DNA of 30,515 nt from positions 5,655-36,169 of the forward strand of contig NW_003153256.1 of NCBI RefSeq assembly GCF_000003605.2, in the 5' to 3' direction. Below, piece after piece: positions 1-30,515 of the stretch (within the stretch, counting starts at the first letter, position 1; the number at the start of each line of letters is the position of its first letter). The notes beneath the pieces were generated by a model, which saw only the letters and a program-made list of their open reading frames with translations, was not told the origin of the DNA and searched no databases. Source of the DNA: Saccoglossus kowalevskii. Lineage: Eukaryota > Hemichordata > Enteropneusta > Harrimaniidae. A program made the position numbers and the translations under genes.

Positions 1-129
1 TTCATCAATAAAACACTCACAGTGCAAGGCTAGTTCACCAAAATGTCTATTCTTTTGCTTGAGTGTGAAAGTACATGGTTTAGTGACTACCTCTTATATT
101 TAAAAATTTTAGAATTTCTTTTATTTGGG

Positions 130-1865
130 AAGGTTCTTCTATAAAAATATAACAGATATATGTATATATATTTTTATTCAGTACTATAGGCCATGGGCCT
201 TACATGTACAATATTAAATATACTTGAAAATAAATAAATAAACCCTCCCCCAGCCATTCCATAAGTTTTCGGCGTTTCTGTAATGACTAGAGAATATACT
301 TGCCTAGATTTACTAACGTATTTGTATTAAATTAATTAACGAAATAAATTATCATTCTGACGCTGGAGAAAAATAAACGTGTGGAATATTTTGTATCATA
401 AGAATGGCATATTGTGAGCAAATTAGAAGCATGTGATATTCATCTTCAATTTGATTACAACAAAATGGACAAAACCTCAGTTCCAGTGGAATCCTCTCCC
501 AGTCTCAATATTTGGGTCATGTTTAGAAATTCTAAAACAAGGCAGTGTCCTTCTATAAGTTACATTTGAAGTATATTTCAAATACTTTTCACAAGTCATA
601 TTACATTTAAATTTACAGTATGTACGCATTGTGGGATACCCTGCAACACCAATAAACCATTCTTGCTCAGAAATATCAAAACTTCGCTGTTTAAATTCAT
701 ATAGAAAGAGGTCATAATTAACCACCTGTTGTTTTACCTATACTTTACCAAAACCATATTTATTTAACAGGTTTTTGACATACAGTGCCCAGCAATTGAA
801 CTCCTGGTTTGTCGAGTATACTGGTATTGATAACAATCTCTAGCAGTTTCTGGGGAGTCTACTTGTATACATTTCAATCAAAACCGAATTATTTTAATGT
901 TAATCAATGCATGTATTTGGTGTCTACCTTACTCCACCTCCCTGACAGCACAATGTGTGGCTTTCAAATATACCCCCAGAATACATTTACAAAGTTTATG
1001 GTGATTTTTTTCAATATCATTACATTTAGGATTTTCCAGAATGCGCTGCCACACAAGAAACTTGGACAATCAAAAACGTTAAATGCATTATGTGGTTGTA
1101 ATCTCCAAAATTTATAAAGCATACTTTGTAGAGAATGTAAGCTTTCCTTGCCTATTCTGCAATAAGTTTGTGTGCTTGGTACCAGATATCCGAACTACAG
1201 AAAATAACACAAGATAATTGTACTTTGAGACAACTTCTATTTCTCATCCTTTCCATAACCATTTCTCAACTTGTTTTAATCATCCTTTTTTTCCGAAATA
1301 CAATAATTTTAGAATTTTTCATGTTTACATCCAATCTCAATCTACTACAATTATCTGCCAATCTATCTAACAAACGCTGTAAACCGATTGGAGAACTGCT
1401 AAAAAGCGCGAGATCGTCTGCATAAAGTAAATACATTATGTTTAGAAGTATTGAAATATAATACAACAGTCAACTTTTTCAATATCGTTAACATAGAATA
1501 ATAGTGATGATATAAATGAAACTTGTTGCAAACCTACGTTTATTTTGAAAAAATTCTGTGACCTCCATTGGTGGTTTGACAGCAGTTTGAACATGTGTAT
1601 ATATTGAAATTATGGATGATAAGAGTTCTTCTTCTATACCAGCCTTGGCTAATTTATAGAACAGGGAATAATGATGAACACGGTAGTCTCGTAGTCTAGA
1701 AATGCACAGTATAAACGGCTTTTTAAATGAAGTGTAGACAGAATAAATACATTATCCACGGTACCCCATTCCTTCCGAAAGCCACTCTGTACTTCAACTA
1801 TTTTACAATAATTATCAATCCACGCCGAAAGTCTATCTGCCAAAATACTTGTGTACAATTAATTA
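130..1865 (-). mobile_element. CR1/L2-type LINE, reverse transcriptase and 3' part, degenerate
   Basis: Read on the minus strand, 1858-1649 gives a reverse-transcriptase fingers stretch (ADRLSAWID, VQSGFRKEWGTVDNVF, CAFLDYET). This runs on in shifted frame through KLAKAGIEEELLSSIISIY, then to the catalytic box LLYADDLALFSSSPIGLQRL at about 1430-1370. The C-terminal region typical of these LINEs follows: RTYCKFK...EKYL...RISKHDPNIETGR near 620-480 and CPFCCNQIEDEYHMLLIC near 470-410. The 3' tail (about 250-130) is A/T rich and carries a short palindrome around AAGGCCCATGGCCT plus AATAAA, as is common at the 3' ends of CR1/L2 elements. The region between PPMEVTEFF and YADD is eroded and several frameshifts and stops are present, so the copy is dead. 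The clade is assigned from motif style; Jockey-superfamily relatives are not excluded. Confidence 0.85.
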
Positions 1866-3199
1866 ATATTATTACATATGTACCGCAGTTTATTTTGATT
1901 CGTCCCTGAAATCAAAATCGGTATTTCCACAACACATATGCAAATAAGGTATGAGGGCAAACAAAGTAGTCCCTTCAGGAGTAACGTTTTTCGAAATAAA
2001 CAATATTAAGAAGTACGATATTTCACCTTTGGGATACATGAATATACTTGCCGAGTGAAATGGAATTTGAACAACAGCAATGGTACTTTTATGCAGTCAC
2101 TTATTTTGAGTCAAACTAATTTGCATATCACCCATGCAATAATTTTTTCAGTATTTGCACGGTCGATATGCAAATGAACATGGTATTTCCATTGGCTACC
2201 GAACTATTTTTATTTTGTAAACACATTTTCGTCTGCTATTTTTATCCGATTCAAATAGTTCAGCAACGTTTTTGGCATGTCAGGTGTACATCACATAAAA
2301 TACTACGATTGGGAGAACTTAATGTATGTTGATCACCTGGAAATTGAGTTATATAAACCTTGAAGGGCTCTCGAAAGACCCACCCGCAGTAAAATCAGCG
2401 ATTACCGTTGAACATCGAGATACCAGGAGGTTTCTGCTGGCGATGTTGCGGCCTGAGTTCCAAATAAAGATTATTAACGCCAAATGAGCAGCATTTTAAC
2501 CGGTAACCAAGACTCATTCAATCCACGACCAGCAAGCAATATCACAAAAGAAGTTGTAGCTTGCAGCTCAGCGACGACCGCTGTCGACGAAAGTCATCCC
2601 GTCTGTGGAGTACCGCAGTTGCACGGCTTGTTTGCCAATGCACAATTCTGTGGAGGAACTTTTAACTTCAACATAAACTGTGTATCATAATCATCCAGTT
2701 CAAGTTCACGTCCACGACTAATTTATTCGGACAGTGATTCAGATTATTTTATTTCCACACAGACAGTAACATGCGTTCTACACTGACACCCGTTGCTCGG
2801 GCGTAACCCTGTCTTGGAACATATTAATTGGCAATGGGGTTTCCCGATCTAAATTCCATCCGATTTGTTGCACGTTCTTACTTTAATGTGAAATAATCAA
2901 ATATGGAACATATGTAATAATAACAGAACCCCACACCCTCCCCGTTTGCACTCGAGATGTGGTGTATTCGCTTCGCTCGTGAAAGTACGGCCGCAGGCTA
3001 CACCGCATCACTGGTGAAAATAACTTCCATACGCAACGAAAGCCACGGGGAGGGTGTGGGGTTCTTTCGTAGTATTTAATGGCATAATACTACAATAATT
3101 TCCCGGTTCACCTTAAGACTCTTTCGTATAAAGCCCATTCCATGTCCAAAACGTTATTGAATAAAATATGTAACATATTATGTATTATTTATATGTTAT
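1866..3199. other. Foreign insert splitting the LINE; contents unidentified
   Basis: LINE similarity stops on both sides of this stretch: the endonuclease-to-RT linker ends near 3200 and RT sequence restarts near 1860. Within it, on the plus strand, a TATA-like TTATATAAACC lies at about 2349, roughly 130 bp upstream of a 68-codon open frame at 2484-2690 that ends FNFNINCVS. An AATAAA lies at about 2464. This looks like the edge of an element or a retroposed promoter-bearing fragment, but no family was recognised. An inverted-repeat element (2925-3065) lies inside it. The open frame alone is not convincing as a gene. Confidence 0.4.
2925..3065. repeat. Perfect 21-bp inverted repeat, MITE or fold-back element
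   Basis: The 21 bases at 2925-2945, beginning AGAACCCCACACCC, are the exact reverse complement of 3045-3065, ending GGGTGTGGGGTTCT. An inner pair, GATGTGGTGTA near 2954 and TACACCGCATC near 3000, matches 10 of 11 as an inverted repeat. The spacer between the perfect arms is 99 bp. This form fits a miniature inverted-repeat element or fold-back transposon. No convincing target-site duplication was seen outside the arms, so the superfamily is not assigned. Confidence 0.6.
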
Positions 3200-4190
3200 T
3201 TGATATACTCTCTGTTTTATCACTAAAGTTTTGCCAAAAATGCCTATAGTGTTAGGTTGGGCAGCAAGGTTTACCAAAGCAACGCGCATCTTGCTTTGAT
3301 GGGTTATCATTTTTTTTTTTTCGTGTTATTGTTTACAACAGCTTCATGTGATTACAGCAGGAGTACATTACGCCATTTAAGGAAACTGTGGCGCTAGCCA
3401 CATCACCCTGCTCAATACTTGTATAGAAACTGTGGCGTAATTGATTAGTGGATTCTGAATAGAAATTATCATGATACATCTGTTTTTGCCCTGATCCCAT
3501 CTAAGTTTACCAGGTACATTGTGTTGTTGAGTAGCAGGATGTACTTCACTGTTGCCATTAACAACCCCATTCTGAAAAGCTACTATTCTATTGGCATATG
3601 GTCTGATTTAATGCGTGATCCCACTGTAAAATCAGTAATCGTTTCAAAAAAGTGTGTGCTTGCAAGAACATAGTCATTTATACTTAATTCAGTCTCAGAA
3701 ATGAATGTAAAGTTTCCACTCCCTGTATTCTTATATAGACTCCCATTTACAATATAAAGCCCAGATGTGAAACAAAACATCAAGTAATCCATACAAATTC
3801 ACTTTGTTTTCCATTGACACAAAAGTTATTATTTCCTTATTACTTTCATTATTTTCAATTAGCATGTAAGTAGCATCTAAGTAAACACTACCTTGTTCAT
3901 TATCTGTTCTCTCATTACCATCGCCTGACTGACAATTTTATTTTGAAGTGTAAGTGTTTCTGTTTTCAATGTGTCAAAGAAATCAGCATAACGTGATCCC
4001 GCTGGTGGTCTAAAAGTATTTGCTATCAATAATATAGGTTGGTTATTATTTAACAAACACCAACATATCTTGTGTATTTGACTGGAAAGACATTTTACAT
4101 CCAAATTACAAGCATTGTTTTCACGAAAAAAACATTGATAACCAACCTGAAGCTCTCCCGTAAATGTTATCTTTTACACCCAATATATTC
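3200..4190 (-). mobile_element. CR1/L2-type LINE, endonuclease (APE-like) part, degenerate
   Basis: On the minus strand, 4104 downward reads DVKCLSSQ...ICWCLL, then ANTFRPPAGSRYADFFDTLK, a standard endonuclease segment. A frameshifted GDGNERTDNEQGSV follows, then LYIVNGSLYK, INDYVLASTHFFETITDFTVG and SDHMPIE (the SDH catalytic box near 3590). The linker after it (WDQGKN, NPLINYATVS) runs to about 3200. Order and strand match the RT part at 130-1865, so both pieces most likely come from one insertion. The first endonuclease motifs are absent, meaning 5' truncation near 4190. Frameshifts and an in-frame stop make it non-functional. Confidence 0.8.
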
Positions 4191-5251
4191 ATATTTTTAA
4201 ACCCATTTACTATGCAGTATCCTCGTAATAACTTCAGATTCATTATAAATGTTTGCATTCGTTTTAACTCATTTTAGGTCAAAATATATTAAAATATTTT
4301 TCCACAAACTTTCATATAGTTTTTGCGCGTCGATGGCGGTTGGCTCTCTGAAGCTTTCACTAGTGGCCAATGATGTAGGTTGTAACAATTAAGGGAAGGC
4401 CAGATTGGAAGTCACGGTGACTGTCGACAGTCTAGGTGATTGGATTCCGCATAAAATCAAACTTTGCAGAAACAGATGATCGCAAGAGAGAGTTTCAGGA
4501 TTCTGCCAGGGTTACGTCCCCAAACACGGGCAGCGTCCTTTAAATAGTCAGAAATAGTATCGTCTCCGGCAGTATCGTTCTCTTGATCACCCGGAACCGT
4601 TGACAGTCTCCATCCCTTCTCTTCCAAATCCCACCGCTTATACCAAGACACTGTTTTCTGGTTTAACAATGGAACATTCAATGCCAACCGAGCACGATAA
4701 CGCGTATACGTCGTTATGTTACTTACAGAGGTTCTGATTTGTGTTTCATCGTAGGATTTGAAATACATACATTGTTTATATTCACTGAATATTATATAAT
4801 ACAATATTTTATACTTATATACATATCACTGTGTAATCCATTCGCGCAGCGCAGCAAAAACGTCATGCGTTCCCCGTGGCTTTAGATACATTAGTGGCGA
4901 AATAATGAATATTTAACTACTCAATCAAAGATACATGACAATATTTTATATTTTGAATGTGCCTATTTCAAAAGAAAAGAATGATGGCTACATATAAATT
5001 TGAAATGCTACCCAATTCCAAAATGACTTTATAAATGTTTACGAAGGCCATGTCACAAGTGCGTTATATATATTTTCGCCGATAATCATTCGAAGTCAGT
5101 CGTTAGAATTCACGCTTACAGATAAAGATAAGTTATTCGCCACCAACAAGAAAATGCCGCATATAACCACTTTCTATCTTGCTAAAAATTCTCACGAGTC
5201 GTCACAGAATATCGAAAATAAATACTCGTGAAATAACGCGGTATTTTCTTG
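4191..5251. other. Spacer without an identified gene
   Basis: An A/T-rich stretch. The minus strand has a 115-codon open frame (4457-4804) containing SWYKRWDLEEKGW and DAARVWGRNPGRIL. It has no recognised domain, no supported splice partners and no convincing start, so it is not called as a gene. No RNA gene, terminal repeat or other element was seen. Confidence 0.3.
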
Positions 5252-6038
5252 TGTTAGGCCTGCATATTGCAATGGAGAGAACCACCCACATAACTCACAC
5301 TGGACAGGGGGTTCTTTCACTGATACAATGGGGTAGACAAGACTATAGTACTGGAAATGAAATACACATACACTAACATATCGAGTTAAAGCTCCTGGCT
5401 TTATTACCTCTCAAAACAATTACAAGAAATAACTCACAGACAAATACAATGAATAAAGTCACTAAAATAGGGGATTGCTTAGGAAAGTGTTCATTGGTGA
5501 TAACTCACAGTTCCAGGATGTAGAAATGGATGACACACAATGGCTTCTGCAACACAACCACGAAAAAATACAGGAGTCTTGCTTGCAGAGGAATGTTGTT
5601 ATTCTGGAGAGCTCCGATGAAGCAGGAGATCACAGAGCAGTTCATAAAAGTATCACAGAATGATGGTTGAAGCCTGTGTCACTTGTCTCACAATATTGTA
5701 GCAGCAACACACAGGATACTAGGTTGAAATGATGGACCCAACTGTTCTCAGTCTGTTCAATTTATAGGCTTAAATGGCCTAGATTCAGTGACACCAACTG
5801 GGTTTCAACATGAGCCAATCAGAATGTGATATTGCTAGCAGCTGTGTCACATAGGCAACTCAGTAGATCATAAACATAGTTTGTTATTCAAATGACAGCA
5901 CACCTGGTAGATTCCAACTGTCCTTGCAGAGTTGATAACAAGTATGACCTGTCAATCACCTCTATGACAGTTATGCACACTTCTTTTTGCAGGGTTTAAG
6001 GTAATATGACAAAAACAAAAAAATAAAGAACGCTGACA
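5252..6038 (+). repeat. Dispersed ~0.8-kb repeat, copy A (possible solo LTR)
   Basis: This segment, starting TGTTAGGCCTGC and ending AACGCTGACA, matches the minus strand of 10765-11636 over its whole length at roughly 75-80% identity by eye. Long shared blocks include ACTGGACAGGGGGTTCTTT, TGGGGTAGACAAGAC, AATGAATAAAGTCACTAAA and AGCAGCTGTGTCAC. The TG...CA ends and internal AATAAA would suit a solo LTR. However, the 5 bp on each side do not match as a target duplication and no primer-binding or polypurine site can be judged. Short open frames shared by the two copies are frame-broken in different places and are not credited as coding. Confidence 0.75.
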
Positions 6039-8025: not shown

Positions 8026-8091
8026 AAAAAAAAACAACTCACGGGAATAAAACCTATCACAATGACATAAAATAAATGATGTTTATCTCAC

Positions 8092-21181
<13,090 letters not shown>

Positions 21182-21280
21182 CTGTTGACGGCAAGATGAA
21201 AAGATGTTATATGCCTTTTCATAATTGTTATATCATGATTATTGTTTAAAGAGTTTATGTTTTTATAATTTGTGCATTTC

Positions 21281-24200
21281 TGCAATCACGAATGCAGTGC
21301 CTGTAATCTCTTATACAGTGTCGGCAATCTATGATACAGTGGCTACATTCTTTCATACAGTGCCTGTAATCTATGATACAGTGCCAACAATCTTTCATAC
21401 AGAGCATGTTTTCACTGATACAGTGCCTATGATATCTCAATCTCTCATACAGTACCTGTAATCTCTCATACAGTGCCTGCAGTCTCTGATACAGTGCCTA
21501 CAATTTTTCATACAGTGCCCGCAATCTCTGATACAGTGCCAGCAATCTCTAATACAGTGCCTGCAATCTCTGATACAGTGCCTGTAATCTCCAATACAGT
21601 GCCTGTAATCTCTCATGCATTACCTACTATCTCTGATCCATTTACTGCAATATCTGATAGAGTGCCTAATCTCTTCCACACAGTGTCAGCAATCTCTAAT
21701 ACAGTGCCTACAAATTCTGATACAGTGTATGCAATCTCTGATACAGTGCTTACAAGTTCTGATCCATCAACTGCAATCAATGATACAGTGCTTTCAATCT
21801 CTCATACAGTGTCTGCAATCTACCATACAATACCTGTAATCTCTCATACACTGCCTACAATCTTTGTTCCATTTACCACAATCTTTGATAGAGTGCCTAA
21901 TCTCTTACTTACAGTGCCAGCAATCTTTAATACAGTGCCTACAATCTTTCATACAGTACCTGCAATCTCTGATACAGTGCCTTCAATCACTGACACAGTG
22001 CCTACAATCTTCCATACAGTACCTGCAATCTCTGATACAGTGCCTACAATCTCTCATACAGAACCTACAATCCCTGATACAGTACCTGTAGTCGCTGATA
22101 CAGTGCCTACAATCTCTCATGCATTGCCTAAAATCTCTGATTCATTAACTGCAATCTCTGATACAGAGGCTGCACTTTCCAATACAAAGCCTACAATCTC
22201 TCATACAGTGCATGCAATCTCTGGTACAGTACATTCAATCGTTGACACAGTGCCAGCAATCTCTCATACAGTGCTTTCAGTTTTTGTTGCGGTCATCGCA
22301 GTTTCTGATACAGAGCCTACAATCTCTGATACAGTGCCTGCAATCTTTCCAACAGTACCTGCAATCTCTGATACAGTGCCTGTAATTGTTCATACAGTAC
22401 CTGTAATCTTTGATACAGTGCCTTCAACCTCTCATACAGTGCATTTAATCTCTTATACATTGCCTACAGTCTCTGAATCATTAACTGCAATCTCTGACAC
22501 AGTGACTACTATCTTCCATAAAGTGCATGCAATCCATGATACAGTGCCTGCAATCTCTCATACATTGTGTAAAATCTCTGATCCATTAACTGCAATCTTT
22601 GATACAGTGCCTGTATTCTACGATACAGTGCCTGAAATCACTGATACAGTGCATGTAATCTCTCATACAGTGCCTGTAATCTCTCATACATTGCATACAG
22701 TGTCTGGTCCATTAACTACATCTCTGGTACAGTACCTACTATATGTGATACAGTGCCTGCAATCACTGACACATTGTCTACAATCGTTAATACAGTACCT
22801 GCAATCTCTGATACAGTGCCTGCATTCTCTGATACAGCGCCTGCAATTACTGGTACAGTGTCTGCAATCTGACATACTATGCCTGGAATTTATGATGCAG
22901 TGCATGATGTCTCTGATACAGTGCATACAATCACTGACACAGTGCCTACTATCTTCCATACAGTACTTGCAATCTCTGATACATTGCCTGCAATCTATGA
23001 TACAGTGCGTTCAACCTCTAATACAGTGCCAGCAATCTCTCATTTGTTGCCTACAGTCTCTGATCCATTAACTTAAATCTCTGATACAGTGACTCCAATT
23101 TCTGACACAGTGCCTACAATCTTTCATTCAGTACCTACAATCTCTTATATCTCTCGTTCGTTGCCTACAGTATCTGATCCGTTAAATGCACTGTCTGATA
23201 CAGTGCCTGCAATCTCCGAGACAGTGCCTGTAATCTCTGATACAGGTCCTGCAATCTCTGATACAGGTCCTGCAATCGCCAATAGAGTGCTTTCAGTTTC
23301 TGTTGCGGTAATCACAGTTTCTGATACAGAGCCTAAAATCTGTGATACAGTGCCTGCAAGCTCTGATACAGTGCCTGCAATCACTCATACAGTGAATTCA
23401 GTTTTTGTTGCGGTCATTGCAGTTTCTGATACAGAGCCTACAGTCTCTGATACAGTGTTGGTAATGTTCAATACAAAGCCTACAATCGCTGATACAGTGC
23501 CTGCATTCTTTGATACAGTACCTACCATCTTTGATGCAGTACCTGCAAGCTCTGATACAGTGCCTGTAATCTCTCATACAGTGCCTGTAATCTCTCATTT
23601 ATTGACTACAGTCTCTGGTCCATTAACTGTGATACAGTGCCTGCAATCACTGACAGAGTGCCTTCAATCTTTCATACCATACCTGCAATCTCTGATGCAG
23701 TGGATACAATCTCGGATACAGTGCCTGCAATTACTGGCACAGTGCCTACAATCTGTCATGCTGTAGCTGAAATCGGTGTTACAGTGCATGCAAACCCTCC
23801 TACAGTGCCCATAATCTCTCTTACAGTGCCTGCAATATTTATACTGTGCCTTGATTCAATGTTATGATGCTTGCAGTTTCTAATCAGTACCTGTAATCTC
23901 CGATACAGTGCCACCAATCTGTGACACAGTGCCTGCAATCTCTGAATCATTGCCTGCAATCTCTGTTACAGTTCTTACAATTTCTGATACAGTGTTTGCA
24001 TTTCTGATACGGTGCATGTAATCTCAGTCACCTTGCATTCAATCTCTCATACAGTGAATACAATCTCTCATACGTCGCCTGAATCAATCATACAGTGCTT
24101 CTGTTTCTGTTTCGGTGATCGCACCTTCTAATACAGAGCCTAAAAACCCAAAACAAAGCCTGCAATTTCTGATACAGTGCCTGCAATCTCTTATACAGGG

Positions 24201-24545
24201 CGTACAATCTCTGATACAAGGCATGCAATCTCCAATAAAAAGGATGTAGGCTCTGATACAGTGCCTGCAAACTCTGATACAGTGCCTGCAATCACTAATA
24301 TAGTGCTTTCAGTTCACGTTGCGGTGATCACACTTTCTGATACAGAGCCTACAATCTCTGATACAGTGCCTGCAATCTCCAATACAAGGCCTGCAATCTC
24401 TAATACAAGACCTGCAATCTTTGCTGCAATGCCTGCAATCAATGATACAGTGCCTGCAATCCCTGGTACAGAGCATACAATCTCTGATAAATGGCTTACA
24501 ATCTCCGATACAAGGCCTGAAATCTCTGATACAAGGCCTGCAATC
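21281..24545. repeat. 21-bp minisatellite array, left block
   Basis: About 155 tandem copies of a 21-bp unit, consensus CAATCTCTGATACAGTGCCT plus G, with 10-30% divergence between units. The period is a multiple of three and five of the six frames of the consensus lack a stop, so long open frames (for example 21473-23071 plus, repeating AISDTVP) appear automatically and are not called as genes. A diverged variant unit containing TTTCTGTTGCGGTGATCAC recurs near 22274, 23290, 23395, 24097 and 24305, some copies exactly 105 bp (five units) apart, which shows higher-order structure. The stretch 23830-24170 is the most decayed. The array begins about 100 bp upstream of the first visible receptor exon. 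Confidence 0.97.
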
Positions 24546-24726
24546 CAATTTTCCCTTTAATTTTTTTGAATTTTGAAAAAACTGAGAAAATTGGCCCATT
24601 TTCCCCTTGAAATGTTTTTTCTGCATACAAAATGCATGGAAAATTTCTCAAAAGACAAAATTTCACTGAGAAACTACAATTTAATCTGAGAAAATTGAGC
24701 GAAAATAAGGCTTAGAGGGAACACTG
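24546..24726. mobile_element. hAT-type miniature inverted-repeat element, 181 bp, with 8-bp target duplication
   Basis: The minisatellite is broken by 181 bp of unrelated A/T-rich sequence. The octamer CTGCAATC stands directly on both sides (24538-24545 and 24727-24734), a perfect 8-bp target-site duplication. The ends are imperfect inverted repeats: left CAATTTTCCCTTTAA, right (reverse complement) CAGTGTTCCCTCTAA, 12 of 15 matching. An 8-bp duplication plus CAGTGTTCCC-like termini is characteristic of hAT-superfamily elements. There is no coding capacity, so it would have needed transposase from elsewhere. Because the array itself is repetitive, the duplication alone could arise by phase; the termini make the case. 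Confidence 0.88.
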
Positions 24727-24876
24727 CTGCAATCTTTGATGCAGTGCCTGCAATCAATGATACATTGCCTGCAATCCCTAGTACAGGGCTTACAATCTTT
24801 CATAAATTTCAGACACAGTGCCTGCAATCTCCTATACAACGCTGGCGATATCTCATACAGTGCCAGAAATCTCTGA
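24727..24876. repeat. 21-bp minisatellite array, block between hAT element and R2
   Basis: Seven or so degenerate units of the same 21-bp repeat continue after the hAT element and stop abruptly at AATCTCTGA, where 28S rDNA begins. Confidence 0.9.
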
Positions 24877-24896
24877 GATGACGAAGCATTTGGCTA
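24877..24896 (-). other. 28S rDNA fragment downstream of the R2 site
   Basis: On the minus strand these 20 bases read TAGCCAAATGCTTCGTCATC. This is the conserved 28S rRNA sequence immediately 3' of the R2 insertion site (TAGCCAAATGCCTCGTCATC), with one change. It abuts the 3' end of the R2 element on one side and minisatellite on the other; 28S would continue TAATTAGTGACG but does not. Confidence 0.93.
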
Positions 24897-25014
24897 TCAA
24901 AAGCTAACATCAATGGATTGATGCTAATGCATACCATGGAATTATAGTCTCCACGCAGACTTTGACGTTCATACTCGAGCATTTTACTATCAAGCATGCA
25001 GAGGCTGTTGGCGT

Positions 25015-25580
25015 CTATGGGTATGTCGGCTCTTCCGGGACTTCTGCCGAGAAAATGTATTTGTCCCCAGCAAAGATGCGAACCATATCCATCGAAGCAT
25101 AGATTACCCTCCGCGCATGTGTTTCCGTGAATGTCTGTCGTTTGATGTCAATTCTTCGAAGAGACTCCAGTGAGGAAGGTGGCAACCCCCCTCTGGATCC
25201 AACGACCAGGCCATAGGTCGACACCGGGTTGCTAGAACGTGTCATCTCGGCCACGTGCTTGCGCAAATGCAAATCCTTCTCAGCCTTCTCCATGCACCAT
25301 GGAGGTTCCCATTATTGTTTTCATATCGGATAGTAACGTCGACGATGCTGGTCGGGTTTGTACTTACCCTCAACTATGCAGTGCGGCCCTTGCCACACCA
25401 TCATGTCCATTTGTCTGCACTCATCAGCAACCAACTTGCATCGTGACGCCATATCCTCTTCGTTTTAACATATGAGCACTGGCCGAGGACGTGTGAGGCT
25501 GTCTACTTGGGAGCCCCACAACGCCTGCACTTAACGTCGATGGACTTATCGAACTAGTGAAGTCTTGAGCGGAATGGATA
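25015..25580 (-). pseudogene. R2 C-terminal CCHC and restriction-like endonuclease remnant
   Basis: On the minus strand, near 25530-25480, CRRCGAPK*TASHVLGQC shows the CCHC knuckle C-x2-C-x7-H-x4-C with one stop. The endonuclease core follows, with NPTSIVDVTIRYE near 25350-25315, where family members have a P-D...D-V-T-V/I-R-Y-E block. The frame then shifts into KAEKDLHLRKHVAEMTRS, VSTYGLVVGSRGGLPPSSL and the C-terminus ending EEPTYP at 25015. The first catalytic Asp appears replaced (PTSIV) and at least one frameshift is present, so the endonuclease is inactive. Confidence 0.85.
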
Positions 25581-25674
25581 GACTCCCCCTCTTAGTTTCA
25601 ATGCAGTTATGTATTTCGATTCGAAAATGTTTTAACCGCTGCGCCTGCACTCTATTCACGCATTTGCAGCAGGG

Positions 25675-26915
25675 TTAACGACAAACTCCTTGACTCTGTA
25701 TCCAGTGGGAACCATCTTGCTCCACCTGTCGGTGTGCCAACGCGAGACGGCTCTTGGGGAATGTGCCCGCCCTTTTGCAATCTCTGCCTCGGTACTTAAA
25801 CCAGCCCTCGTCGCAATATTTCTCGTCCCCAGAGCGACATATACTAATCAGACGTTTGTAATTGAGCCATGGGACGTGGAACTCGAGCACAAGGATACCG
25901 AGCCCCCCATCGCGCATACTCGCATGCAATAGCCCGTTAGGAGTAGAAGGGTCCAGCTTCAACCAGTCTTTGACTGTTCTCAGAAGCGAATCCAACGAAC
26001 AAAGGACGTTCTGGGATGGCAGCCTATACGATAGACCATATAATAACTTTGGGATAGCGTATTTGGTCAGCATTTCAACCTTCTGCGTTGGCTTTAACCT
26101 GCCTTTGTTTATACCATTGATCATGGATTGTAATAGCTCAGCCGTTGGAGGGTCCCCCTTGTAAGGGCCAACCCTGGCACTGAGGTACTTTGTAGTATTC
26201 TCGGGACTAACGATCGGGAGACGTTCATCTCCGATCTACCATCCGACTGAGTCTTTACAGTACCATGACCTTCCCTTAGGGCGTATAAAGAAGGCAGCAC
26301 ACTTCTTCACATTCAGACCTGTGTGTTGACAGAAGTCCCTGACAATGTTCAATTAGGCGCTGCTGGCCCCCTTCTGACCCCGATATTAGGGCAATGTCAT
26401 CAGGGAAGGCCAACATCGCTACACGGTCCGTGCCGCCTTGGCTAAACGCGTAACCCAATCCCGAGTGAGAGAGGCAGGAGATCATCAGGTCCATACATAG
26501 ATTGAAAATCCATGTTGACAGTGGGTCGCCCTGCTTAACTCCTCTGAGAATGCGTATCGGCATAGATGTTTTCCCTCCTGATGTAAAGCAGATGGTTGCC
26601 CCGGCATATAAGTCTAAAATTACACTCTTAATGGCTAAGGGAGCGGCCACCCATAACAAGGCTGACTCGATGTGCCTGTGGGGCACAGTGTCGAAGGCCT
26701 TGGCGAGGTCCAAGAATGGGTTATGGGCAACAATGCAGGGGCAAAGTTGCATGCGACATCATCCGGGTAGCCGTTTCCCTCTAGTTCGCATTCGGGAGAG
26801 ACGGATTCCAGCTTCGCTCTGTAAGCTGACTCCACTGTTCCTATATCTATATTGCACTTACTATATTGACCTATGAGCTCTGCAGCCATCTTGCCAGGCT
26901 TGTTTTTAAACAAGT
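25675..26915 (-). pseudogene. R2 reverse transcriptase remnant with internal deletion
   Basis: On the minus strand, pre-RT sequence (NKPGKMAAELIGQYSKCN, AYRAKLESVSPE) near 26900-26790 runs almost directly into RT motif 3, FLDLAKAFDTVPH, near 26715. Motif 4 is RILRGVKQGDPLSTWIFNLC and the catalytic box is MLAFPDDIALISGS near 26400. After a frameshift come KKCAAFFI, KYLSARVGPYKGD, the thumb GRLKPTQKVEMLTKYAIPKL and MRDGGLGILVLEFHVP. Motifs RT0-RT2, normally around 150 residues, are missing at about 26720-26780, an internal deletion. The catalytic pair DD is retained, but FADD has become FPDD. Confidence 0.88.
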
Positions 26916-27297
26916 TCTGGTGTCACTTAAACTGCGATTTCTATCGAGCATACCGCCTCGACACCCTTCTTCCTCCTGCTTTCACAGTTGGTTTGTTGGT
27001 GCGTTGGCTGACCTTGTCGGCGTTCTCCGCGACCAGCTCAGCGAGTCTATTACCAATATGCTCATATACCTCGTCTCGGTTGACGTCGACACAGGGTTTC
27101 TCTCCAGAGAATACTTTCGCCAAGATTTCTCTTGCTTAATTGGCGTTTGGGTGGGACATAGAAACTGTACCCGATAGAGCTTTGTGGAATTTCACAGGGT
27201 CAGGTCTACCCTCATCCCAGACCCACTTCCGTGCACCTATCGACCCATCCAGTGCATGGTCAGAGTTTTCGGCACGCTCTGTCTCCTGGCTTTCTTC

Positions 27298-27987
27298 CTA
27301 AGTAGGGGTCTGATTGCCTCTCTTGTGACCTGCCAGCGTGCATCGTTTCTCGCTGACTTGCTTCGGAGTACACTCGGGTAGGTGGTTGGCAATTAGAACA
27401 TTTATGTTGGGCTTGCCTTTGTAGGCTATGCTCAACTTCTTGACTTCGACCTTCTTGACTTCCTCCTCAGTCCAGGCCCCAGCACCTTTAGTACGAGAAC
27501 TTGGCTTGTGTGTCTTGGGCTGCTGGCTTTTGGCAATATCCGGGTGCTTGTGCCTCTGGTGCTGTCCCAGACCGATGCGTGACTCGAATCCGTCTTGACA
27601 GACGTCGCACATATGCTTGAGAGGTTGAATAGCGATTGTGCGGCAAGTACAAGACTTTGGGTAATGTGACGCTATGCTTCTAATCCTGTCGCACACCTTG
27701 CCGCAGCACATACGTTCGTAGTTTATTATCTTCACCGCATGGGTTACTAGATGTTGTTATAGTTCTGCGTATCTTTGGAATGCCCTGTTCGTACACCAGG
27801 CGCATGTTATGGACGTACCTCTACTGGTCCCTGAGTAGAGTAATGTGGCGCTGGTGTTATCTACGCTCAAGGTCACTGTGCTACAATTTGGTTGGGTGTG
27901 ACCTGCTCCCAACCCGACGACCATTTGAGCCGGCTGGTTAAGGCAAGCTCTACATGTCCGAGTGTCCATCGCCGTGTTTATCAATCC
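27298..27987 (-). pseudogene. R2 N-terminal zinc fingers and Myb-like domain remnant
   Basis: On the minus strand, CAWCTNRAFQRYAEL*QHLVTH near 27810-27740 is a C2H2 finger (C-x2-C...H-x3-H) broken by one TAA. It is followed in the same frame by a second finger, CDVCQDGFESRIGLGQHQ then RHKH, near 27615-27550. A Myb-like helix block follows: GAGAWTEEEVKKVEV, LSIAYKGKPNINVLIANHLP, TPKQVSEKRCTLAGHKR. In R2 these domains bind 28S DNA around the target. More than one N-terminal finger suggests the multi-finger R2 clades rather than the single-finger clade; a further finger upstream (RTCRACLNQ) is possible but not clear. Confidence 0.85.
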
Positions 27988-28401
27988 GTTATTATTTTGT
28001 AAGCGATTCGTAACAAGTTTGATACATTCGGTGAGGGGAGTTAGCCCGCACTGGAGGCCCCTTGTGCCCTTAGATTAGCCGCCCCCCGGTTTCCCGGGAA
28101 CTGCTAGGCTCGGAACTCCTACTACAGGAGTCGGGCACTACACGGTCACCGATTTTCTCGCCAGATCCAGTATCACCTCGAAGAGTATCCGAGATGTGCA
28201 CACCTCGGGTTCGACCAGACTACGCACACCTTTCGGGTTCGCTCGCCTGGGATCTACCATAACTCCCATCCTCCATTGCAGACAGCATCTTTGGTTGGTA
28301 AGCGACTTCAGAGAACGAACCTTCGATTCTTTTGATCGTCGCTGGACGATGCCGATTCTCGCCTCATGGAGGCTGGGCTAGGGGATATCTGGGTTAGTAG
28401 C

Positions 28402-28427
28402 TAAGAGAGTCATAGTTACTCCCGCCG
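28402..28427 (-). other. 28S rDNA fragment upstream of the R2 site
   Basis: On the minus strand these 26 bases start CGGCGGGAGTAACTATGAC and end TCTCTTA. They match the conserved 28S rRNA sequence immediately 5' of the R2 cleavage site (...GACTCTCTTAAGG^TAGCC). The last few target bases (AGG) are missing at the element junction, the sort of small deletion often found at R2 5' ends. On the other side 28S stops and minisatellite (GGCCTGCAATCTCC on plus) resumes. Confidence 0.93.
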
Positions 28428-30515
28428 CAGGGCCTGCAATCTCCAATATAAATCCTGAAATCTCTGATACAGTGCCTGCAATCACGGATACAAGGCTTAC
28501 AATTGTTGATACAGGTCTTGCAATATCCAATACAATGCCTGCCATTTCTGATACAGTGACTGCAAGCTCTGATACAGCATATGTAAGCTTTGATACAGTG
28601 CCCACAATCTTTGATACAGTACCTGTAATCTCGGATACATGGCTTACAATCTCTGATACAGGGCCTGCAATCTCCAATACAAAGCCTGCAATCTATGATA
28701 AAGTGCCTGCAACCTCGGATACAGTGACTGCTATCTCTGATAAATACATGTAAGCTCTGGTACAGTGCCTGCAATTTCTGATACAGCAATTGTAATCTAT
28801 GATACAGTGCCTGCAATCTACAATACAAAGCCTGCAATCTATGATAAAGTACCTGCAACCTCGGATACAGTGCCCGCTATCTCTGATAAATACATGTAAG
28901 CACTGGTACAGTGCCTGCAATTTATGTTACAGTGCCTGCAGTCTCTGATAAAGGGCTTACAATCTCTGGTACACTGCCTGCAATATTCAATACAAAGCCT
29001 GCAATCTCTAATACAGTACCTGCAACCTCTGATACAGTGCCTGTAATCTCGGTAACAGTGTCGGCAATCAATCATACAATGCTTTTAGTTTCTGTTGCGG
29101 TGATCACTGTTTCTGGTACAGAGTTTATAATCTCTGACACAGTGCCTGCAATATGTGATACAGTGCATGCAATCACTCATACACTCTTTTCAGTTTCTGT
29201 TGCGGTCATTCCAGTTTCTGATAGAGAGCCTGCAATCTCTGATACAGTGCCGGTAAACTCTCATACATTAACTGAACTCTAGAGAGCCTGCAATCTCCAA
29301 TACAAAGAAGGCAATCTCTGATACAGTGCCTGCAATCTATGATATAGAGATTACAATCTCTTTAGAGTTACTACAATCACTGATAAATTTCTTATAATCT
29401 CTGATACAGGGCCTGCAATCTCCAAGACAAAGCTTGCAAGCTTTGATACATTGCCTGCAATCTCTGATACAAGGCATAAAGTCCGTGATACATGGCCTAC
29501 AATCTACAATACAAAGCTTGGGATCTCGGACACAGTGCCTGTAATTTCTGATAGAAAGCCTGCAATCTCGTATAAAATGCGTGCAATCTCTGATACAGAG
29601 CCTGCAATTTATGATACAGTGCATACAATCTGTGATACAGGGCTTACAATCTCTTATACAGTGCCTGTAATCTCCATTACAAAACCTACAATCTCTGATA
29701 CAGTGCCTGCAATCTCTGATACAGGGCCTGCAATCACTCATACAGTGCTTTCAGTTTCTGTTGCGGTGATCACATTTTCTGATACATAGCCTATAATCTC
29801 TGACACAGAGCCTGCAATATGTGATACAGAGCTTGCTATATCTCATACAGTGCTTTCTTTTTCTGTTGCGGTGATCACATTTTCTAATACAGAATCTACA
29901 ATCTCTGATACAGTGGCTGCAATCTGTGATACAGAGCTTTCTATCTCTCATACAGTGCTTTCAGTTTCTGTTGCGGTGATCACATTTTCTGATGCAGATC
30001 CTACAATCTCTGATACAGTGTATGTAATCTCCAATACAAAGCTTGCAATTTTTGATACTGTGCCTGCAATCTCCAATACAAAGCCAACAATCTCTGTTAC
30101 AGTGCTTTTAATCTCTGATACAGTACCTGCAATCTCTGATTCATGGCTTACAATATCTGATGCAGGGCCTGCAATCTCTAATACAAAGCCTGCAATATAT
30201 GATACACTGCCTGCAATCTTTCATACAGTACCTGCAATCTCTGATACAGTGCCTTAAATCTATCATACTGTGCCTGTAATCTCACATAGATTGCCTAAAA
30301 TCACTGATCCATTAACTGCAATCTTTGATACAGTGCCTGTAATCTATGATACAGTGCCTGCAATCTCTGATACAGTGCCTGCAAGCTTTGACACAGTGCC
30401 TACAATCACTGATACAGTGCCTGCAATCTATGATACAGTGCCTACAATCTTTGCTACAGTGCCTCCAATCTCTGATACAGTGCTTACTATCTTTGATGCA
30501 GTACCTGCAAGCACT
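28428..30515. repeat. 21-bp minisatellite array, right block, runs off the window
   Basis: About 100 more units of the same 21-bp repeat, in the same orientation as the left block. Here the variants ACAGGGCCTGC and ATACAAAGCCTGC are common. The diverged TTTCTGTTGCGGTGATCAC unit recurs near 29082, 29186, 29748, 29853 and 29958, the last three exactly 105 bp apart. A ~115-bp segment (TGCAATCTATGATAAAGTRC followed by ATACATGTAAG) is repeated near 28690-28755 and 28825-28900. Open frames on both strands are by-products of the period and are not called. Confidence 0.97.

Follow-up and report, generated by a model that had tools for sequence, protein, structure and literature searches.

A 28S-tailed R2 retrotransposon embedded in a 21-bp minisatellite of Saccoglossus kowalevskii

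Layout of the locus and its two 28S tails

The DNA considered here, which we call the window, is a stretch of 30,515 bp. It comes from a 67.9-kb contig, where it occupies bases 5655-36169, and the assembly as a whole measures 572 Mb. A mitochondrial COX1 (identified by PF00115) and a second frame taken by eye for ND1 read TGA as Trp and, to judge by eye from conserved positions, ATA as Ile and AAA as Lys, with hardly any AGR; set against the code tables, this usage suggests a hemichordate. Read along the minus strand, a 21-bp array gives way to 26 bp of 28S rRNA gene sequence, followed by 3505 bp of R2 retrotransposon, 21 bp of further 28S sequence, and then the 21-bp array again. The features of the locus, in window coordinates, are as follows:

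21280..24876, plus strand: left half of the 21-bp array, with a non-array insert at ~24546-24719
24876..24896, minus strand: downstream 28S piece of 21 bp (+1..+21) with a single C>T change, its base 24876 also counting as part of the array
24897..28401, minus strand: the R2 retrotransposon itself (3505 bp), probably of the A clade and dead as judged from its reading frames
25675..26235, minus strand: part of the R2 protein after the reverse transcriptase (RT) core, from an R2 protein match
26276..26758, minus strand: RT core (Pfam PF00078, E 1.6e-11), in a frame that differs from its neighbours
27298..28074, minus strand: N-terminal region with zinc fingers and Myb, interrupted in the main frame by a stop at 27757-27759
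28352..28411, minus strand: candidate HDV-like ribozyme core with P1 at 28S -13, from a motif search
28402..28427, minus strand: upstream 28S rRNA gene piece, 26 bp, R2-site positions -29..-4, exact match
28428..30515, plus strand: right half of the 21-bp array, running at least to the window end

We number 28S positions following PMC10499050, from which the sequence of positions -31..-22 was taken; the downstream 28S sequence is that given in PMC12222951. Minus-strand bases 24896..24876 read TAGCCAAATGCTTCGTCATCT, identical to 28S +1..+21 at 20 of 21 positions. The AGG that lies between the two 28S pieces is absent at the locus, and silkmoth R2 junctions are likewise reported to lose 2-3 bp (PMC3774820). 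A preliminary description of this DNA had proposed an R2 outside rDNA, carrying both 28S flanks, inside a minisatellite. Alignment bears this out: both flanks are 28S (26/26 and 20/21), with array on either side, and the 28S-tailed R2 embedded in a minisatellite is confirmed as real. The accompanying claim of an origin in an rRNA gene, or of transcription through one, holds as well, given 28S R2-site junctions at both ends. As for the sizes given there, the 26 bp upstream stands, and the downstream piece grows from 20 to 21 bp, with a last base common to the array.

Across the assembly, the upstream 26-mer occurs once and its reversed-pattern control not at all (both at <=3 mismatches); the downstream 21-mer occurs twice (<=2 mismatches), at the R2 locus and on contig C2849. 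We considered the latter as a second 28S-tailed R2 and rejected it, as the match is partial, nothing R2-like lies upstream, and it is best taken as chance. In the searched parts of the contig, which exclude bases 1-5654 and 36170-46198, we found no further copy of the upstream 28S piece (<=6 mismatches); nor did our searches of the assembly recover other 28S-R2-28S fragments outside rDNA, the remaining candidates lacking either 28S (C2261 and C3943, described below) or R2 (C2849).

The R2 copy and its relatives in the assembly

In a protein comparison, three of six pieces translated from the element match solved R2 proteins. The piece at 26276-26758 does so at E 9e-18 (best to R2Bm, then to R2Tg and others) and that at 25675-26235 at E 5e-20. 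For the piece at 27298-27756, which covers the region of the two zinc fingers adjoining Myb, the matches (E 7e-16) are R2Tg and two further R2 chains, with R2Bm not among them. A third zinc finger, interrupted by a stop, was assigned by eye, as was the placement of 27757-28074 in the N-terminal region, for which a Pfam scan gave no R2 family. The other three pieces (26941-27135, 25015-25311, and 26635-26922) match no R2 protein even at a cutoff of E 1; of these, 25015-25311 was the one examined for a restriction-like endonuclease, and the frame is broken there. With an R2-type RT protein, 28S R2-site junctions on both sides, and array in place of a 28S gene around it, the element is R2 sequence out of place and not a resident copy.

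R2Tg is an A-clade R2 with three N-terminal fingers (PMC12222951), and the N-terminal match to it suggests that the present copy probably belongs to the A clade as well. The likeness to the R2 of Taeniopygia and its relatives extends over the N-terminal, RT, and post-RT regions and the 28S junctions; unlike them, the copy here is dead and lies outside 28S, and its RT piece scores slightly better against the Bombyx R2. Several features of the reading frame point to a dead element. The main frame carries five stops between 28074 and 26760, some of which may lie where the true frame had already shifted; the RT motif reads AFPDD, as against the conserved AF/YADD of R2 (PMC3774820); and since the RT piece lies in a different frame from its neighbours, there must be at least two frame changes, some of which could be sequencing errors.

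A DNA search with the element recovered itself, as the only near-complete copy found, together with pieces on contigs C2261 (L013:4437-5705) and C3943 (L014:4211-4602). These are decayed and internal, without 28S or element ends, and show 76-78% identity over their main pieces and 93% over a 54-bp piece. The post-RT piece matched only itself in the assembly, and for the RT piece 48 of the 49 matches listed (all but itself; best 150 of 241 candidates scored) lie at 25-39% identity, consistent with their being other retroelements. An intact R2 site (35-base pattern, <=3 mismatches) is found nowhere in the searchable assembly, and a 196-nt 28S query gave as its only match 65 bp on contig C647; rDNA units are thus missing from the searchable assembly, in a search that is blind to very common words.

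The C647 match belongs to a 98-bp 28S piece without an R element (74027-74124; L020:4928-5025), which starts ACGAGATTCC and lies within a dispersed repeat. We take this start to be the R1 insertion point. An R1 origin of the piece was nevertheless rejected, as the sequence preceding it is the dispersed repeat, also present on other contigs. A query across the piece gave at least 43 other matching rows on 38 contigs (best 40 of 108 candidates scored), and the 28S piece is absent from the expected place in all five copies of the repeat that were compared. Small pieces of 28S thus end up at other places in this genome, and one already lying in the array could have been hit by R2.

The opened array unit and the 5' end of the tail

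The two halves of the array resemble the 21-bp unit to a similar degree, with mean identities of 79.7% on the left (over a stretch that includes the short non-array insert) and 80.5% on the right. Aligned to the unit, the left half stops at position 13 and the right half resumes at position 16; the halves are in phase, so that one unit was opened, the TA at positions 14-15 was lost, and nothing was duplicated, if the array consensus is taken as the empty site. At the 3' junction one base is common to the 28S tail and the array (1-nt microhomology), and at the 5' junction there is no overlap. All 13 matches listed for a 601-base array query fall on the array's own contig, as do all 33 from another search. 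The array is also broken by ~175 bp of non-array sequence (window ~24546-24719), whose right end, AGGGAACACTG, resembles the end of a hAT-type element.

The array site bears little resemblance to an R2 target. It agrees with 5 of 12 published R2 target positions, a score equalled by 4792 of 11244 array positions, and with 28S at 12 of 53 positions, equalled by 8436 of 11244; over a seven-position subset it agrees at 4 of 7, equalled by 1250 of 11244. An R2-like target within the array is thus unsupported by published positions or 28S identity, and is not clear by the seven-position subset. The locus shows the absence of target duplication and ~2-bp target loss expected of off-target target-primed reverse transcription (TPRT), but neither a 28S-like target nor the 4-5 nt of priming homology seen at R2Tg off-targets (PMC12222951), the homology here being 1 nt. 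For R2Bm such homology is not needed (PMC12222951), and the missing target likeness therefore weakens off-target TPRT without excluding it.

R2 is co-transcribed with 28S and released by an HDV-like ribozyme that in many species cuts inside the 28S, most commonly at -28; a cut at -29 has been measured in a springtail and one at -13 in Nasonia vitripennis, and a -25 cut is predicted for a sea anemone R2 (PMC3774820). The tail described here starts at -29, within 1 nt of the commonest self-cleavage site, which would follow from a cut at -29, or from one at -28 with the addition of a single untemplated base; this agreement with -28 was noted after the fact, and several R2 cut sites are known. In the candidate core at -13 (all on the minus strand), P1 would pair 28411-28405 with 28360-28354 with one mismatch, P3 would pair 28373-28371 with 28363-28361, L3 would occupy 28370-28364, and P1.1 would occupy 28353-28352. 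A core-only motif search ranks -13 first (27 vs 22 for -25), and a search also scoring P2 and J4/2 ranks -25 first (34) and -13 second (33). Shuffled sequences held a core as good as that at -13 in 23 of 2000 cases anywhere in the stretch and in 3 of 2000 when only its first 60 nt are counted, a count that was not blind, both descriptors having been drawn up after the -13 motif was spotted by eye. At -27 to -29 the core-only search gave no core with <=1 P1 mismatch, only two-mismatch ones, and a further pairing search found single pairings at -29 to -27 with no convincing core around them; Rfam reported no ribozyme, and neither the window nor loci L013-L016 and L020 gave a hit at gathering score. 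These results speak against self-cleavage at -28 by this copy: the best cores lie at -13 or -25, where cuts would not leave 28-29 nt of 28S.

Routes into the array

The locus itself shows both 28S tails, an array that keeps its phase, a 2-bp loss without target duplication, and a dead ORF. We favor, at a probability of roughly 55%, off-target TPRT of a 28S-R2-28S transcript; the preliminary description, which offered three other routes, had omitted this one, which fits best, although among its proposals insertion into an older 28S fragment stays live. What we infer is an RNA intermediate, the R2 protein as agent, and the following order of events. An R2 in a 28S gene would be transcribed within the rRNA transcript, and R2 protein would bind an RNA made up of the element, the 28-29 nt upstream of it, and the 21 nt downstream. 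Reverse transcription would be primed at the RNA 3' end by a nick in the 21-bp array, with ~1 base of pairing; copying would proceed to the RNA 5' end, and the second strand would be cut 2 bp upstream and then joined, with loss of the TA. In a target other than 28S the tails would have nothing to merge with and would for that reason still be visible; decay of the inserted copy would have come afterwards.

Several observations argue for such an event. The TA loss is of the same size as the R2 nick offset, since the structure of an A-clade R2 agrees with the second strand being nicked 2 bp upstream of the first nick (PMC12180492). The upstream tail starts near -28 and has no second copy in the assembly (<=3 mismatches), and one would presumably seldom see an rDNA fragment with random ends stop within 30 bp of the element on both sides. 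Against it stand the copy's own folds at -13/-25, the weak target likeness, the 1 nt of priming homology, and the lack of upstream 28S in ancestral-type R1 copies outside rDNA, and the 2-bp loss and 1-nt overlap would also fit end joining. It is possible, although we lean toward doubting it, that the tails record both ends of the template RNA, an RNA that would begin at -28/-29 and truly end 21 nt into the downstream 28S. If so, off-target copies could map the ends of R2 template RNA in animals with no earlier work on R2 RNA, and read-through into downstream 28S would belong to the natural R2 template.

A precedent comes from R1, a different element with a different nuclease. Stage and Eickbush (2009) described Drosophila R1 copies outside 28S genes, often in repeated DNA; those of the melanogaster type carry 7-28 bp of upstream 28S, and some R1 copies carry up to 14 nt of downstream 28S, both of which the authors read as parts of the retrotransposition transcript, whereas ancestral-type copies outside rDNA carry no upstream 28S (PMC2718515). 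The R1 copies and the present R2 are thus alike in lying outside rDNA with 28S tails, the R1 copies often in repeats too, and given this precedent the same event for R2 is the simplest reading; they differ in that the R1 copies described there with both junctions recovered show target duplications, of which there are none here. R2 itself has been seen away from its normal site in five Drosophila species, where non-28S copies are often incomplete, in one Bombyx insertion that has been discussed (PMC10499050), and in human cells, where an engineered R2 produced rare off-target insertions at 1530 loci, with >99% of the reads in a more specific condition falling at 28S or at sites resembling it (PMC12222951). 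The preliminary description's "rare fossil" was therefore an overstatement. In the accessible text of these sources none of the non-28S copies is described with both 28S tails, and the human-cell ones came from engineered donors; our literature search, mostly of openly accessible papers, found no R2 outside rDNA with both.

An unlikely but live alternative is that a ~53-bp crumb of 28S with the R2 target pre-existed in the array and later received R2 site-specifically. The genome holds at least one such R-element-free crumb (the 98 bp on C647), a D. ananassae spacer with a 22-bp 28S piece received R1 elements (PMC2718515), and R2Tg enters 28S-like pseudo-sites in human cells (PMC12222951). However, the searches above returned no second upstream 28S piece (contig parts <=6 mismatches, assembly <=3), the crumb would be without A-31 and A-30, of which A-31 is in the R2Bm consensus (PMC10499050), and the start at -29 would be left unexplained. 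Less probable again is repair of an array break by capture of a cDNA of a 28S-R2-28S transcript, with no action of the R2 endonuclease: the weak target match and 1-nt homology would suit it, and the C647 crumb looks, by eye, like such filler, but R2-driven insertion accounts slightly better for a near-complete copy and for a loss of 2 bp, the size of the nick offset, and the two RNA routes are hard to separate from one locus. Capture at a break of a DNA fragment from an R2-bearing rDNA unit we regard as very improbable; it predicts the identical sequence, and a decayed copy could stem from an old rDNA insertion, but the required end points on both sides would be rare, as noted above, and the cut made by the R2 nuclease lies at the empty site, away from these end points. 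Finally, we give hardly any credence to an assembly chimera: the junctions are known from the assembly alone, and the lack of an rDNA unit in its searchable part is a typical misassembly setting, but the array resumes in phase after a 2-bp loss, the decay of the ORF and the single substitution in the 28S tail are in keeping with an insertion that is old and stable, and no other near-complete R2 was found as a source for a misjoin.

Off-target R2 retrotransposition, as we read this locus, amounts to escape of a site-specific element from rDNA, which matters for how R2 evolves and for gene insertion tools built on R2, the off-target products of which are being studied. The special value of the locus is that both tails are legible and that the empty site, in a tandem repeat, can be inferred to the base; as one locus in one genome, with the same kind of event documented for R1, it is a clean further case and not a new process. 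Elsewhere in the window, all on the minus strand, are host coding stretches for a rhodopsin-type GPCR (8060-9286), an LDL-receptor class A domain (14233-14658), and a CUB domain (17830-18300), and a perfect TATT microsatellite of 127 bp occupies 15331-15457.
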